DNA of 64,000 bases from Chloroflexota bacterium. GTDB lineage: Bacteria; Chloroflexota; Limnocylindria; Limnocylindrales; CSP1-4. The stretch spans positions 1 through 64,000 of the forward strand of contig JAFMJV010000005.1 in the NCBI GenBank assembly GCA_017853275.1, in the 5' to 3' direction. The notes beneath the pieces are model-generated. The model was not told the DNA's origin, did not search any database, and saw nothing but the letters and a program-made list of their open reading frames with translations. Positions 36,930-42,904 of this stretch are shown one piece after another; the stretch's first letter is position 1; each line of letters opens with the position of its first letter. A program made the position numbers and the translations under genes.

Positions 36930-38225
36930 TCAGCTGCGCGGTGCCACCCGGGGGCGGGCCGCCACGACCCGGCCGCCGCGCACGGCGACCTCGGCGGGGA
37001 TCGGGTGGGAGAGGAAGAGGGGCATCGATTCGGTGAAGCCGTAGGCGCCCGCGTCCACGACCGCGAGGAGGTCCCCGGTCCGCGGCGCGGGCATCGGGAC
37101 CTCCGTGGCAAGGACGTCCAGGCCGGTACAGAGCGGGCCGACGATGTCCGTGACGCCGTCCGCGGGGCGGCCGGCGCCCGCTCCCACGATGAGGGTCCGC
37201 TGGGCGCGACCGATGAGCGCGGGCCGGAGCAGGTGATGGATCCCGCCGTCCGTGACGGCGATCGTCCGGCCACTCCGCTCCTTCGTCCGCACGACGCGCA
37301 TGAGGTAGGCGCCCGCGGGTCCGGCAAGGAAGCGGCCCGGCTCGAAGAGGAGGCGCGTCTCGGAGAGGCCGGTCCGGTCCGCCCAGGTCGCCGTCTCGCG
37401 CGCGAGGCCGTCGCGGAGCAGGTCGAGGTCGAGGGGCGCCTCGTCATCGGCATAGGGGATCCCCAGCCCACCACCGGCATCCACCGTGCGCAGGTGGAGG
37501 CCGTGCCGGGTGGCGAATGCCTCCGCCCGGGCGGCAAGGCTGCGGACGTTCTCCACGATCCGGGTGGCATCGAGGACGTTCGAGGCACCGAAGGCGTGGA
37601 GCCCGAGGAGCTCGTAGGGGGAGCCTGGGCCGCCGATCGCGCCGGCGAGGAGGAGACGGTCCACGGCGGCATCCACCTCGTCCGGGACGAGGCCGAACTT
37701 CCCGGCACCGGGCCCACCGATGATCGGATGCGCCTCGGCACCGATCCCTGCTCCCTCGATCGCGAGGCGGAGGAGGATCCCCTGCCGCGGCGCCGCCACC
37801 GGCGCGAGCTCGATGAGCACGTCGAGCTCCTCGAGCGATTCGACGGTGATCGCCCGGAGCCCGCTGCGGGCGGCGCGCGCGAGCTCCGCATCCGTCTTGC
37901 CCGGCCCGGTGAAGACGACCGAGCGAAGGTCGAAGCCCGCACGGGTCACCGCATCGAGCTCGCCCCCGGAGGCGATATCGGCGCCCACGCCGAGACCGGC
38001 GAGGTGGGCGAGGAGGGCGGGGTTCGGGTTCGACTTCACCGCGAAGGCGAGCTCGGCACGCTCCGGGAGCGCCGCGCGGAGCGCGCTGACGCGCGCCGTG
38101 ACGACGTCCAGGTCATAGACGAAGAGCGGCGAGCCGTGGGCGCGGACGAGCTCCTCGGGGTCCATCCCCGCGATACGGGCCCCCGCCTCGATCCGCGGGT
38201 GCTCCGGAGCCGCTCCTTCGCTCAC
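36930..38225 (-). CDS. lysA: Diaminopimelate decarboxylase
   Basis: FAVKSNPNPALLAHL, DIASGGELDAV, GGGLGIPY, GAYGFTES; GTG start; last gene of dap cluster. Confidence 0.88.
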   Translation of the reverse strand: MSEGAAPEHPRIEAGARIAGMDPEELVRAHGSPLFVYDLDVVTARVSALRAALPERAELAFAVKSNPNPALLAHLAGLGVGADIASGGELDAVTRAGFDLRSVVFTGPGKTDAELARAARSGLRAITVESLEELDVLIELAPVAAPRQGILLRLAIEGAGIGAEAHPIIGGPGAGKFGLVPDEVDAAVDRLLLAGAIGGPGSPYELLGLHAFGASNVLDATRIVENVRSLAARAEAFATRHGLHLRTVDAGGGLGIPYADDEAPLDLDLLRDGLARETATWADRTGLSETRLLFEPGRFLAGPAGAYLMRVVRTKERSGRTIAVTDGGIHHLLRPALIGRAQRTLIVGAGAGRPADGVTDIVGPLCTGLDVLATEVPMPAPRTGDLLAVVDAGAYGFTESMPLFLSHPIPAEVAVRGGRVVAARPRVAPRS

Positions 38226-39130
38226 CGGAGCGCCTCCTCGAGCGCGACCCGCGCCTCCGTGGAGGCGTCGCGGCGCTTGACGATGACGGGGACGGAGAGC
38301 GCGACCCCCTGCGCTGCCGCCCAAGCGCCCGGCGCGGGCCGGCTGCCGGGGATGACGACCGCGCCGGGCGGGACGACGAGCGGCGCCTCCGGCGTGCCGC
38401 GCAGCTCCCGCTCCTCGACGAGGTCGATGAGCCGGCTTTGCCCGGTGAGGATGACACCGGAGCCGAGGACGGCCCCCTGGCCCACGACGACCCCCTCGTA
38501 GAGGCCGCAGCCGCCGCCGACGAAGGCATCGTCCTCCACGACGACCGGGCGCGCTCCGGCCGGCTCGAGGACGCCGCCGACCTGGGCCGCGGCGGAGAGA
38601 TGCACGCGGGCCCCGATCTGGGCGCAGGAGCCGACGAGCGCGTGGGAATCGACCATCGTCCCGCGCCCGACCCAGGCACCGATGTTCAGGTAGGAGGGGG
38701 GCATGATCGTCACGCCCGGCTCGAGGTGGACGCCCGAGCGCGCCGTGCTTCCGCCGGGGACGACACGCCAGGGGGCCCCGGCCGCGAGCGCGGCGCGCGC
38801 GCCCTCGCTCTCGAGGAGGTCGAGGACGCCGTAGGCCACCTTGTCCCGGGCCACCATGATCGGACCGTCCCGGTAGTCGCGCAGGCCGGGGATCCGGAAG
38901 CCGAGGAGGATCCCGCGCTTCACCCACGCGTTCACCCGCCAGCCGCCGGGGGCGGCCGGATCCGGCTCTGCGGCACGCACGGCCCCCGCTTCGAGCGCGG
39001 TGACGAGCTCCGCGGTGAGCTCGACGGCCTCGTCCCGGAGGGCGTCCGGGAGGGGGCTGCCGGCGGCGGGCCAGGCGTCGAGGGTGGCGAGGATCCGGTC
39101 GCGAAGCGCGGCGTACGCCTCGCCGCTCAC
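38222..39130 (-). CDS. dapD: 2,3,4,5-tetrahydropyridine-2,6-dicarboxylate N-succinyltransferase
   Basis: Left-handed beta-helix hexapeptides; IMPPSYLNIGAWVGRGTMVDSHALVGSCAQIG. Confidence 0.92.
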   Translation of the reverse strand: MSGEAYAALRDRILATLDAWPAAGSPLPDALRDEAVELTAELVTALEAGAVRAAEPDPAAPGGWRVNAWVKRGILLGFRIPGLRDYRDGPIMVARDKVAYGVLDLLESEGARAALAAGAPWRVVPGGSTARSGVHLEPGVTIMPPSYLNIGAWVGRGTMVDSHALVGSCAQIGARVHLSAAAQVGGVLEPAGARPVVVEDDAFVGGGCGLYEGVVVGQGAVLGSGVILTGQSRLIDLVEERELRGTPEAPLVVPPGAVVIPGSRPAPGAWAAAQGVALSVPVIVKRRDASTEARVALEEALR

Positions 39131-40047
39131 GCGCCCGCTCCGTCCGCGATCAGCCCCACCGCGGCGAGCGCGGCGCGGAGGGTCGCCCGCTGCGCGTCCG
39201 CGAGCGGCAGGAGCGGCTCGCGGAGGACGTCGTGGATGAGACCCATCTCGGCGAGCGCGGCCTTCACCGGGACCGGGTTCGGGGAGATGAAGTTCACGCG
39301 CATGAGGTCGAGGTAGCGGTGGTGGAGCGCCCGGGCGGTCGCCCAGTCGCCCGCGAAAGCTGCCGCGCAGATCCGCGCCATCTCGGCGGGGATCTCGTTG
39401 GAGGCCACGCTGATCACGCCGTCCCCGCCGAGGGCGAGCATCGGGAAGGTGACCGAATCGTCGCCGGAGAGGACGGAGAAGCCCTCGGGGCGGTCGCGCA
39501 GGATCGTCATGATCTGCTCGATGTTCCCGCTCGCCTCCTTCACCGCGACGATCCCGGGATGGCCGGCGAGGCGCATCAGGGTGGCGGGCTCGATGTTCGT
39601 GCCGGTCCGGCCGGGGACGTTGTAGACGACGACCGGGAGCCCGCCCTCGTCCGCGACGCGCCGGTAGTGGCTCTCGAGCATCCGCTGGTCCGGCTTGTTG
39701 TAGTAGGGCGCCACCACGAGCGCCGCGTCCGCACCGAGCGCCTTCGCGCGGCGGGTCGCCTCGATCACCGTGCGCGTGTCGTTCGAGCCGGTCCCGGCCA
39801 CGACCGGGATCCGGCCTGCGGCACCGCGCCGGCGGACCGCGTCGATCGCGAGGCCGATGATCCGCTCGTCCTCCTCGTGGGAGGTCGTGGGGGACTCGCC
39901 GGTCGTGCCGACCGGGACGAGCCCGTCGATGCCGAGGTCGATCTGGCGCTCGACGAGCCGGACGAAGGCCGCCTCGTCGAAGGAGCCGTCCGGCAGGAAG
40001 GGGGTGACGAGGGCGGTGAAGGCGCCACGCAGGCGGAGGGCGGTCAT
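39127..40047 (-). CDS. dapA: 4-hydroxy-tetrahydrodipicolinate synthase
   Basis: GTTGESPTTSHEE, VYNVPGRTGTNI, VKEASGNIEQ. Confidence 0.96.
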   Translation of the reverse strand: MTALRLRGAFTALVTPFLPDGSFDEAAFVRLVERQIDLGIDGLVPVGTTGESPTTSHEEDERIIGLAIDAVRRRGAAGRIPVVAGTGSNDTRTVIEATRRAKALGADAALVVAPYYNKPDQRMLESHYRRVADEGGLPVVVYNVPGRTGTNIEPATLMRLAGHPGIVAVKEASGNIEQIMTILRDRPEGFSVLSGDDSVTFPMLALGGDGVISVASNEIPAEMARICAAAFAGDWATARALHHRYLDLMRVNFISPNPVPVKAALAEMGLIHDVLREPLLPLADAQRATLRAALAAVGLIADGAGA

Positions 40048-40083: not shown

Positions 40084-40851
40084 TCAGGAGGCGGCCGGGC
40101 CGGCGAGGATCTCGCCGATCAGGCTCGCGAAGGGGATGAGGCCGGCGGGACGGTCCGGGTCCGCGCAGATCCGGTCGGCCGCGAGGAGCGCACCGGCCAC
40201 GTAGGCCGAGCGGTCCCGCGCGGTGACCTGGAGCTCGATCGATTCGCCCGGCGCATCGAACCCCACGATGTGCATCCCGGGGTGGACGCCGGCGCGGATC
40301 GCGACGACCTCGAGCGTCGCGGGATCTGGCGCTCCCTGCCCCTCGGGCAGGAGCGCCCGGCGCTTCGCGGGGAGGTGGGGAAGCATCCGCTCGGCGATCG
40401 CGTTCGCGGTGCCGGAGGGGCGGTCCGCCTTGGCGCGGCGGTGCTGCTCCACGATGAAGGGGTCGAACTCGGGGAAGCGCCCGAAGCGCTTCGCGGCCTC
40501 GACGGCGACCTCGGTGAAGAGGATGACGCCGACGCTGAAGGTGGGGCCGACGACGACGCGCAGGCCACGCTCGGCGATCAGCCGCTCAAGACCCGCCGCG
40601 ATCGCCGGGTCGTGCGCCCAGCCGGTCGTCCCCACGACGATCGAGCGGCAGCCCGCGTCCGCGGCGAGCCGGAGGTTCGGCAGGAAGGTCTCGGCGTGGC
40701 TGAACTCGAAGGCGACGTCCACGGGGGCGAGGGCCGCCGGGTCCGGCCGGTCCGCGCGACCGGTCATCCCGACGACCGCATCGCCGCGGGCCTCCAGGGC
40801 GCCGCGGATCGCGCGGCCCATGTTCCCCGCACCGGTGAGGAGCGCTCGCAT
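40084..40851 (-). CDS. dapB: 4-hydroxy-tetrahydrodipicolinate reductase
   Basis: GAGNMGRAIRGAL, FIVEQHRRAKADRPSGTA. Confidence 0.92.
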   Translation of the reverse strand: MRALLTGAGNMGRAIRGALEARGDAVVGMTGRADRPDPAALAPVDVAFEFSHAETFLPNLRLAADAGCRSIVVGTTGWAHDPAIAAGLERLIAERGLRVVVGPTFSVGVILFTEVAVEAAKRFGRFPEFDPFIVEQHRRAKADRPSGTANAIAERMLPHLPAKRRALLPEGQGAPDPATLEVVAIRAGVHPGMHIVGFDAPGESIELQVTARDRSAYVAGALLAADRICADPDRPAGLIPFASLIGEILAGPAAS

Positions 40852-40873: not shown

Positions 40874-40913
40874 AAACAAAAACGCCGCGGTCACCGTGCT
40901 CGGTGTCCGCGGC
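40874..40913 (-). terminator. Intrinsic terminator upstream of dapB (candidate attenuator)
   Basis: Minus strand GCCGCGGACACCG-AGCA-CGGTGACCGCGGC then GTTTTTGTTT; 12 bp plus one A/A mismatch. Confidence 0.85.
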
Positions 40914-40924
40914 CCCGGGAGCCT

Positions 40925-40965
40925 GTCCGCCAGGCCCCACGCTTCTCGCGCGCTGCCTAGCGGAC
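40925..40965 (-). promoter_or_regulatory. 11-bp stem-loop between leader ORF and terminator
   Basis: GTCCGCTAGGC / GCCTGGCGGAC, 11 pairs including one G-U, 19-nt loop; 5' arm spans the leader stop codon. Confidence 0.7.
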
Positions 40966-41022
40966 CGCTGCCTCCAGGCAGGGCCGCGTGCGCTTGCGCT
41001 TCGGGAAATCGTGGTTCGCCAT
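40957..41022 (-). CDS. Putative leader peptide MANHDFPKRKRTRPCLEAAVR
   Basis: ATG..TAG, 21 codons, K-R-K-R-T-R run, directly downstream of a good promoter and upstream of terminator/dapB. Confidence 0.6.
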   Translation of the reverse strand: MANHDFPKRKRTRPCLEAAVR

Positions 41023-41033
41023 CTCGGGGGCGG

Positions 41034-41062
41034 AGTATGGGGGCGGGCGGGGAGCGCGTCAA
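41034..41062 (-). promoter_or_regulatory. Candidate sigma70-like promoter for dap leader
   Basis: TTGACG - 17 bp - CATACT on the minus strand. Confidence 0.65.
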
Positions 41063-41167: not shown

Positions 41168-42346
41168 ATGGGCCGTGGGGCCGGATCGGTGGTCGTGGTC
41201 GCGGGGCTGGCCGTCGCGCTCGGCGGCCTCGTCATCCCGGCCGGAGCGGCGCAGGAGCCGGTGCGCATCGGGGCGGGCTTCGCGCTGAGCGGGAAGGACC
41301 GCTCGATCGGGGAGCCGGCGGCGCGCGGGGCGATGCTCGCGATCGAGGAGATCTCCGCGGCGGGCGGGGTCCTCGGACTTCCCGTGGAGCTGATCGTCCG
41401 GGACAGCACCTCGGACCCGGCGGTCGCGGCGGAGAACGCGCGGCAGGCGGTGACGGAGGATGCGGTCGATCTCTACCTCGGCTTCACGGATACGGACCCG
41501 GTCCTCACGGCCGGCCCGATCCTCCAGGAGGCGGGGATCCCCTTCCTCGTCGTCGGTGCGACCTCACCCCTCCTTCCGGCCACCGTGGGCGACCGCCTCT
41601 TCCTCGTCCCCTTCGGCGACAACACCCAGGCGGCGGCCGGGGTGGAATACGCGATCGACCGCTTCGGGACCACCGCTGCCCTCCTCTGGGACGAGGGGGC
41701 GCAGTACCCCATCGACCTTGCGCGCTACGCGCGGAGCGCGCTCGCGGCGGCAGGCGGGAGCCTCGTCCTCGAGGCGACCTTCGCGGACCGCGACCCGGAC
41801 CTCGCGGAGGCCGTGGCGCGGCTCCGCGCGCTCGAGACCCCTCCGGACTTCCTCTACGTGGCGGCGATGCCCTACAACGTGGGGACCGTCCTCCGCCAGC
41901 TCCGGGATGGCGGCCTCGCGATGCCGGTCGTGGGCGGGGATGGATACGACACGCCGGAGCTCGTCACCGAGGGCGGGGACGCGGCAGAGGGTGCGATCTA
42001 CACGACGCACGCGCTCATGGACCCGGTCTCCGGGAGCGAGCCGGTCCGCCGCTTCATCGCGGCCTACGCGGCACGCCACGGGGAGGGGACCGCGACCTCG
42101 TTCGCCGCGCTCGGCCATGACGCAGCGTCCCTCGCGGCCGCCGCGATCGAGGCGGCGGGGAGCACGGATCCGGAGGCGATCGTGGCGGCGCTCGAAGCGA
42201 CGACCGGCTTCCCGGGGATCACCGGCACGATCGGCTACGCGCCGGGGGTCCACGTCCCGGAGAAGAGCGTGGCGATCGTGGAGATCGTGGACGGCGTGCC
42301 GACGCCGGTCGCGGAGGTGACCCCGCGCTCCGTCCCCGCGCCCTGA
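41168..42346 (+). CDS. ABC transporter substrate-binding protein, branched-chain amino acid (LivJ-like)
   Basis: Signal peptide; GAGFALSGKDRSIGEPAARGAMLAIEEISAAGGVLG. Confidence 0.88.
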   Translation: MGRGAGSVVVVAGLAVALGGLVIPAGAAQEPVRIGAGFALSGKDRSIGEPAARGAMLAIEEISAAGGVLGLPVELIVRDSTSDPAVAAENARQAVTEDAVDLYLGFTDTDPVLTAGPILQEAGIPFLVVGATSPLLPATVGDRLFLVPFGDNTQAAAGVEYAIDRFGTTAALLWDEGAQYPIDLARYARSALAAAGGSLVLEATFADRDPDLAEAVARLRALETPPDFLYVAAMPYNVGTVLRQLRDGGLAMPVVGGDGYDTPELVTEGGDAAEGAIYTTHALMDPVSGSEPVRRFIAAYAARHGEGTATSFAALGHDAASLAAAAIEAAGSTDPEAIVAALEATTGFPGITGTIGYAPGVHVPEKSVAIVEIVDGVPTPVAEVTPRSVPAP

Positions 42347-42367: not shown

Positions 42368-42904
42368 ATGGATGAGCGGACGGGGCGCACGGGGCCGGCC
42401 GGGGCGGGCGGCCCCGGACGGGCGGGGCGCGAGGCGCGCCTGCGGGTGATCGAGGAGCTCGTGAGCGCGCGTCCCGTGACGAGCCAGCGGGAGCTCGGGG
42501 CGCTTCTCGAGGCGCGCGGCTTCGCGGTGGATGCCGCCACGGTGAGCCGGGATCTCGCGGCGCTCGGTCTGGTCAAGGTCATGCGCGATGGCCGGCGCGT
42601 CTATGCTCTCCCCGGCGCGCCGTCCGAGACGGGCCGGGCCGGCGGATCGGCGCTCCGGCGCCTCCTGGACGATCTGCCGATCACGGTGCGGCGGTCGGGG
42701 CTCACGCTCCTCCTCATCACCCTGCCGGGGATGGCGAGCGCGCTGGCCCAGGCGATCGACCTCTCCGAGCTCCAGGAGCAGGAAGGGACGCTCGCGGGCG
42801 AGAACACCGTCCTCGTCCTTTTCGCGGACGAGGCGCGGATGGCGAGCTGGCGGGAGCGCTTCGATGCCCTGCGCGGGGGCGGGGAACGGGAGGGACGCGG
42901 ATGA
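42368..42904 (+). CDS. argR: Arginine repressor
   Basis: N-terminal wHTH TSQRELGALLEARGFAVDAATVSRDLAALGLVKV; C-terminal GTLAGENTVLVLF. Confidence 0.88.
   Translation: MDERTGRTGPAGAGGPGRAGREARLRVIEELVSARPVTSQRELGALLEARGFAVDAATVSRDLAALGLVKVMRDGRRVYALPGAPSETGRAGGSALRRLLDDLPITVRRSGLTLLLITLPGMASALAQAIDLSELQEQEGTLAGENTVLVLFADEARMASWRERFDALRGGGEREGRG

Follow-up and report, generated by a model that had tools for sequence, protein, structure and literature searches.

Comparative evidence for a lysine leader-peptide attenuator upstream of dapB and for related leaders with exchanged control codons in one class of Chloroflexota

The attenuators of the proteobacterial trp, his, thr, leu, ilv and phe operons combine a leader ORF carrying codons for the operon's product, mutually exclusive antiterminator and terminator structures, and a biosynthetic operon downstream, and such classical attenuators are usually regarded as independent inventions, made operon by operon. 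Naville and Gautheret 2010 (PMC2965389) placed the leader peptide systems then known in two phyla, Proteobacteria and Actinobacteria, and described a further case from the Firmicutes. The actinobacterial cys leader peptides are short ORFs with Cys codons ahead of cysteine genes, without conserved terminators (PMC1262725). Lysine and methionine genes can also be controlled through their leader RNAs by L-box and S-box (SAM) riboswitches, and T-box riboswitches use a single RNA scaffold that is re-targeted by changing the specifier codon. Within the open-access literature that we searched, we found no lysine or methionine leader-peptide attenuator, no leader-peptide attenuator of any kind in Chloroflexota, and no report of one attenuator scaffold with exchanged codons.

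Here, we describe the leader that precedes dapB in the window, the whole 64,000-nucleotide stretch of Chloroflexota DNA that was analysed. The leader resembles the proteobacterial attenuators in each of the features listed above, and differs from them in that the control residues of its family are Lys and Met (plus Cys), its start is apparently near-leaderless, one homologous scaffold is common to operons for different amino acids, and the control codons are followed directly by the 5′ strand of the antiterminator, whose pairing with the terminator arm is long-range. In contrast to the actinobacterial cys leaders, the Chloroflexi family has both a conserved terminator and a conserved antiterminator. 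It shares with the T-box the re-targeting of one scaffold, but its codons form part of a translated ORF, where decoding presumably falls to the ribosome rather than to direct binding of tRNA, and unlike the L-box and S-box it gives no aptamer match. We consider it very likely that the element is a ribosome-mediated transcription attenuator with a Lys leader peptide that controls dapB-dapA-dapD-lysA, and that it belongs to a family whose control codons (Lys, Met, Cys) are exchangeable. This reading is inferred from sequence alone; there are no expression data, and lysine-responsive read-through is itself an inference. As criteria for membership of the attenuator class, we took a short ORF with a promoter and an in-frame start, control codons that are conserved and match the end product of the operon, an antiterminator exclusive with the terminator, an intrinsic terminator between the leader ORF and the first gene of the operon, choice of the structure by the position of the ribosome, and read-through that follows the level of charged tRNA; the sequence bears out the first four, model folds favour the fifth under some assumptions only, and the sixth is inferred.

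Anatomy of the dapB leader and its operon

The features of the leader and the operon, in window coordinates, are as follows.

41034..41062 (-): promoter TTGACG-17-CATACT, from a minus-strand reading of 41300-40700 and a promoter scan
40957..41022 (-): leader peptide ORF MANHDFPKRKRTRPCLEAAVR followed by TAG, 21 codons, ATG at 41022, stop TAG at 40959-40957; conserved in relatives
40999..41001 (-): first control codon AAG (Lys), nt -14 relative to S1
40993..40995 (-): second control codon AAG (Lys), nt -8 relative to S1
40981..40987 (-): S1, GCGGCCC (codons ..CGG CCC), antiterminator 5′ strand, from conservation and complementarity to S4
40955..40965 (-): S2, GTCCGCTAGGC, spanning the leader stop codon
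40925..40935 (-): S3a, GCCTGGCGGAC, partner of S2, nested within S1:S4
40909..40915 (-): S4, GGGCCGC, antiterminator 3′ strand, at the base of the terminator 5′ arm and a perfect complement of S1
40884..40913 (-): intrinsic terminator hairpin GCCGCGGACACCG-AGCA-CGGTGACCGCGGC, from the minus-strand reading and alignment pairing
40874..40883 (-): U-tract GTTTTTGTTT, from the minus-strand reading
40084..40851 (-): dapB, divergent in sequence, start at 40851, 100.9 bits against an NCBIfam cut-off of 122
39127..40047 (-): dapA
38222..39130 (-): dapD-type acyltransferase
36930..38231 (-): lysA (diaminopimelate decarboxylase), 262.6 bits against a cut-off of 297.9

The initial annotation had proposed the promoter, the 21-codon ORF, the stem spanning its stop codon, the terminator with its U-tract, and dapB behind them, and all of these held when the sequence was re-read. 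DapB and LysA score under their NCBIfam cut-offs, and the neighbouring genes are right for both. The promoter is the sole sigma-70-like site within 36-44 kb, an 8-kb region in which 0.2 would be expected. Since the end of its -10 hexamer lies only 11 nt before the leader ATG, the leader mRNA is likely leaderless or nearly so, an inference that rests on promoter spacing. Across the family, a -10-like hexamer sits 5-13 nt before the leader start in 112 of 119 leaders (mode 9 nt), and in 88 of 94 leaders the first ATG or GTG past the best promoter opens the frame that contains the control codons, meeting the criterion of a short ORF with a promoter and an in-frame start.

The S2/S3a stem forms 11 of 11 pairs if a single U-G is counted. 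In the terminator (40913-40884), a stem of 12 pairs with a single A-A mismatch closes a 4-nt loop, and the U-tract follows; the hairpin is located between the leader ORF and dapB, as the criterion for the terminator demands. This terminator was absent from the output of a terminator scan of the 36-44 kb region, possibly on account of the A-A mismatch in its stem. In folding, the window leader was more stable than all 200 of 200 shuffled sequences (z = -3.0).

Lysine operons are more usually associated with the L-box, as the initial annotation had remarked, and the lysine riboswitch model (RF00168) matched neither in the window nor in 61 genomes of the family, although positive controls were detected; T-box and other Rfam models gave no match at the element. 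Rfam models matched the window only once, at an FMN riboswitch (RF00050, 22226-22375, minus strand, 69.3 bits). Divergent from the operon lies a gene for a branched-chain amino acid ABC substrate-binding protein (41168-42346, plus strand), for which ATG 41168 is the likely start, rather than GTG 40988, which overlaps the leader; an ArgR-like gene follows it at 42368-42904.

Conservation of the leader among dapB loci

We sought DapB in the 61 family genomes and read the regions 5′ of 21 strong DapB loci. Every one of the 21 has a short ORF with Lys codons and a conserved WRPCREARA(LGL)-like end, followed by a stem and a terminator. Because a protein-based scan of genome contigs yielded nothing confirmed, we employed a DNA pattern limited to the S1/S2 RNA core, with the Lys codons left out, and searched 84,980 species. 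The pattern was found on 23 contigs, all from Chloroflexi MAGs, and all 23 carry two to three in-frame Lys codons immediately 5′ of the core and a DapB-like start downstream.

In total, 37 distinct dapB leaders were collected from Chloroflexi MAGs of one class, which we infer is likely to be Limnocylindria, a class described with the families CSP1-4 and Limnocylindraceae (PMC13212565). In 37 of 37 there is a leader ORF with two or more Lys codons adjoining GCGGCCC (S1), and it is this conservation that lifts the observation above chance. Lys occupies both -14 and -8 in 33 of the 37, the remaining four having their Lys codons 1-3 nt out of register, and the last Lys codon begins 8 nt 5′ of the core in 32 of 34 distinct aligned leaders. 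AAA replaces AAG in two leaders (L021 and L092); as the first of these shows, it is lysine and not a nucleotide string that is conserved.

The suggestion that the Lys codons are control-like is supported, with Lys kept in all 37 leaders and its register to the hairpins fixed in nearly all of them. The accompanying suggestion that Arg codons are control-like failed: codons between the Lys codons vary, and those after them are fixed by S1, the CGG-CCC that follows being constrained as RNA. Loss of the ORF or of its Lys codons in relatives that keep the hairpin had been set in advance as the refuting case, and the opposite was seen. Ribosome-mediated lysine attenuation, which the initial annotation had offered as inference, is thus supported by comparative evidence, with lysine-responsive read-through still inferred.

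The conserved peptide end raises the alternative that the leader peptide acts in trans, in the manner of peTrpL (PMC7298713), besides or instead of attenuation in cis. In its favour, the RRPRR / RPCREARA end is basic and conserved. Against it, RNA pairing accounts for the conservation of the peptide, the RPCREAR part being explained by the S1/S2 pairing constraints, and the N-terminal half is not conserved, so that we regard a trans-acting peptide as very unlikely.

Exchange of the control codons in related leaders

A covariance model built from the dapB leaders was run on 177 genomes of the class and matched 81 of them, with a second, weaker group of matches at other loci. These loci carry the same core with different codons in the same register, and their representative downstream genes were identified with NCBIfam and Pfam. 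Met-x-Met (usually ATG TGT ATG) is found before metY, thrC, ABC ATPase, OsmC and beta-carbonic-anhydrase genes, and several of the genes other than metY lead into metY. Cys-x-Cys precedes cysE-cysK or cystathionine beta-synthase (CBS). Met stands at both control positions in 57 of 59 metY leaders and Cys in 7 of 9 tabulated cysE or cysK/CBS leaders; neither Met nor Cys occupies them in any of the 37 dapB leaders, nor Lys in any of the 59 metY leaders. Lysine and sulfur pathways are thus kept apart throughout the codon table, meeting the criterion that control codons be conserved and match the end product of the operon. Of the sequence evidence at hand, this swap to Met and Cys on the same scaffold speaks most strongly for the codons themselves being the sensor, a conclusion that remains an inference.

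Two alternatives to attenuation are addressed by this exchange. In the first, the element is a metabolite- or protein-binding RNA, the short ORF has no role of its own, and the 'peptide' seems conserved merely because the RNA structure is. RPCREAR can indeed be explained by the S1/S2 pairing, and riboswitches serve lysine and methionine operons elsewhere (PMC1262725). Against this, it is precisely the in-frame codons at -14 and -8 that vary with the pathway, with AAA and AAG exchanged synonymously, the in-frame start is kept in 88 of 94 leaders, and no Rfam family matches the element; a binding RNA is very unlikely. In the second, the hairpin is a constitutive terminator between divergent genes that insulates dapB from read-through, and the ORF is untranslated. 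The neighbouring gene is divergent and there are no transcript data, both of which would allow this, but the promoter lies 5′ of the terminator on the same strand, a complementary S1 is conserved, and three codon classes follow their pathways; we regard an insulator as very unlikely.

Having set these readings aside in favour of attenuation, we view the codon-exchangeable family as the larger finding beyond the attenuator of the window, though experimental proof of regulated read-through is missing. The element looks, by inference, like an amino-acid sensor that the ribosome reads and that can be used again for other operons. On a bolder reading, which we hold to be likely, the lysine, methionine/threonine and cysteine/sulfur genes of one uncultured Chloroflexota class are governed by a single homologous family of codon-programmable attenuators, which would be to the ribosome what the T-box is to tRNA. 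Specificity would come only from which codons occupy the fixed positions -14 and -8, the RNA switch behind them being invariant, and the members of the family would have arisen by copying of the scaffold and exchange of codons. Such a family would add lysine and methionine, described as riboswitch-controlled (PMC1262725), to the leader-peptide systems, would extend leader-peptide attenuation to Chloroflexota, and would supply a natural re-programmable sensor of tRNA charging. With the same RNA before operons of three amino acids, the evolution and design rules of attenuation become directly testable.

In a phylum-wide sample of 301 genomes, matches fell in only two families, both of the same class, and a sister family was without matches. 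R2 matches near E = 0.01-1 (L178-L183, L215-L217) look like chance on inspection and were rejected. The window's own genome carries a Met/Cys-rich leader (..TTCACMEGMMRICMRRRPRRTEDGVPGR) before metY (L164, G000:C26:10167-10306, minus). SAM riboswitches occur in 5 of 10 genomes tested, elsewhere than at the element; the window's genome has SAM riboswitch matches above the cut-off (G000:C92, C61), so that two kinds of Met/SAM RNA control coexist in it.

Several loci depart from the common arrangement. Met-x-Met leaders precede threonine synthase genes, at the Thr/Met branch point, at three loci (L170, L173, L177), in two of which (L170 and L177) the control codons are displaced by 1 nt. Five leaders of OsmC genes (L168, L174, L205, L209, L214) keep a Met/Cys-rich peptide, their S4 is degenerate and they have no clear U-tract; they count against the general model, and their mode of action may differ. 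At one locus (L082, G063:C253), a Met leader and a carbonic-anhydrase-like gene lie directly 5′ of a Lys leader and dapB on the same strand, placing two attenuators in tandem. At another (L184, G059:C5:140623-140749), a Met leader before an SCO4226-like gene is divergent from the Lys leader of dapB, and the two share an intergenic region.

Competing RNA structures and the position of the ribosome

One part of the antiterminator was missing from the initial annotation: the stretch that immediately follows the Lys codons (S1, 40987-40981) also takes part in it. Over the three classes, the invariant alignment columns lie in S1 (GCGG.CC) and S4 (GGGC.G), and the rest of S4 is nearly invariant. The S1:S4 helix reaches at least 7 bp (7-9 bp) in 125 of 134 leaders and is paired in 99.1% of cells, as against 42-51% with slid partners. 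Its eighth pair is seen as C-G, U-A, U-G and G-C, and one leader (L218) has U-A for C-G at the fifth pair (GCGGTCCT:AGGACCGC). Because seven of the eight pairs never vary on both sides within alignment A2, covariation support for S1:S4 comes down to one position and L218, beside the invariance itself. The terminator is paired in 98.4%, with three pairs changed on both sides. For S2:S3 in divergent dapB pairs, a leader's own partner gave -32.4 kcal/mol against -26.7 kcal/mol for the swapped one, and the own partner won over a divergent relative's in 86% of the comparisons for dapB and 73% of those for metY. None of these pairing and swap counts is corrected for relatedness. In relatives, S1 additionally pairs, as the 5′ arm, with the region preceding the leader stop to give a 1:2 hairpin.

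Both S1:S4 and the terminator S4:S5 use S4, the base of the terminator 5′ arm, and are therefore mutually exclusive, which satisfies the criterion for the antiterminator.

We propose that, when Lys-tRNA is scarce, the ribosome would halt as the first Lys codon enters its A site, with its leading edge just short of S1. S1, left uncovered, would then pair with S4 ahead of the synthesis of S5, and RNA polymerase would read through into dapB. In the sequence, S2:S3 lies nested inside this antiterminator, and the terminator S4:S5 depends on the S4 segment that the antiterminator uses. With ample Lys-tRNA, the ribosome would pass S1 to the leader stop and cover S2, and S4 would be free for the terminator to form.

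Equilibrium folds of the full leader showed no antitermination in most leaders, which is why we used truncated transcripts and scans of ribosome position, folding the RNA up to S4 with the ribosome and everything behind it excluded, that is, with no pairing across the ribosome. In these model folds, all three classes gave an S4 capture of 0.98-0.99 only with the A site at the first control codon; later positions gave 0.14-0.76, and the leader stop about 0.5. Once S5 was present, the terminator won at equilibrium in nearly all cases at any ribosome position, so the switch must be kinetic. Classical attenuators likewise rely on a kinetic switch. When pairing was allowed across a ribosome at the leader stop, S1:S4 stayed favoured and discrimination was lost in the Lys and Met classes; discrimination by the ribosome at the stop is thus the weakest part of the model and depends on folding assumptions. 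It also counts against the model that a stall at the -8 codon would mask part of S1, yet -8 is as conserved as -14.

This last point bears on an alternative of the his-operon type, in which a stalled ribosome masks S1, S2:S3a forms, the freed S3b pairs with S4 (GGCUC-loop-GGGCC), and S1:S4 is only a minor conformer. A stall at -8 masks most of S1, the fold of one leader (L002) then has S2:S3a together with S3b:S4, and the -8 codon is conserved equally with that at -14. Against this, S3b:S4 is a short helix of 4-5 bp, weak in three leaders (L014, L020, L021), and S1:S4 both covaries and extends over 7-9 bp in 125 of the 134 leaders. We therefore think the his-like scheme unlikely, if less remote than the other alternatives, and retain capture of S4 by S1 as the preferred reading.

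The Met class has a further conserved element 3′ of the terminator, CTCCG...CGGGTgaCCGCC, present in none of the dapB leaders and in 38 of the 59 metY leaders. It lies ~10-45 nt past the terminator (for example in L117) and is complementary to CGGAGG and to the leader S1.
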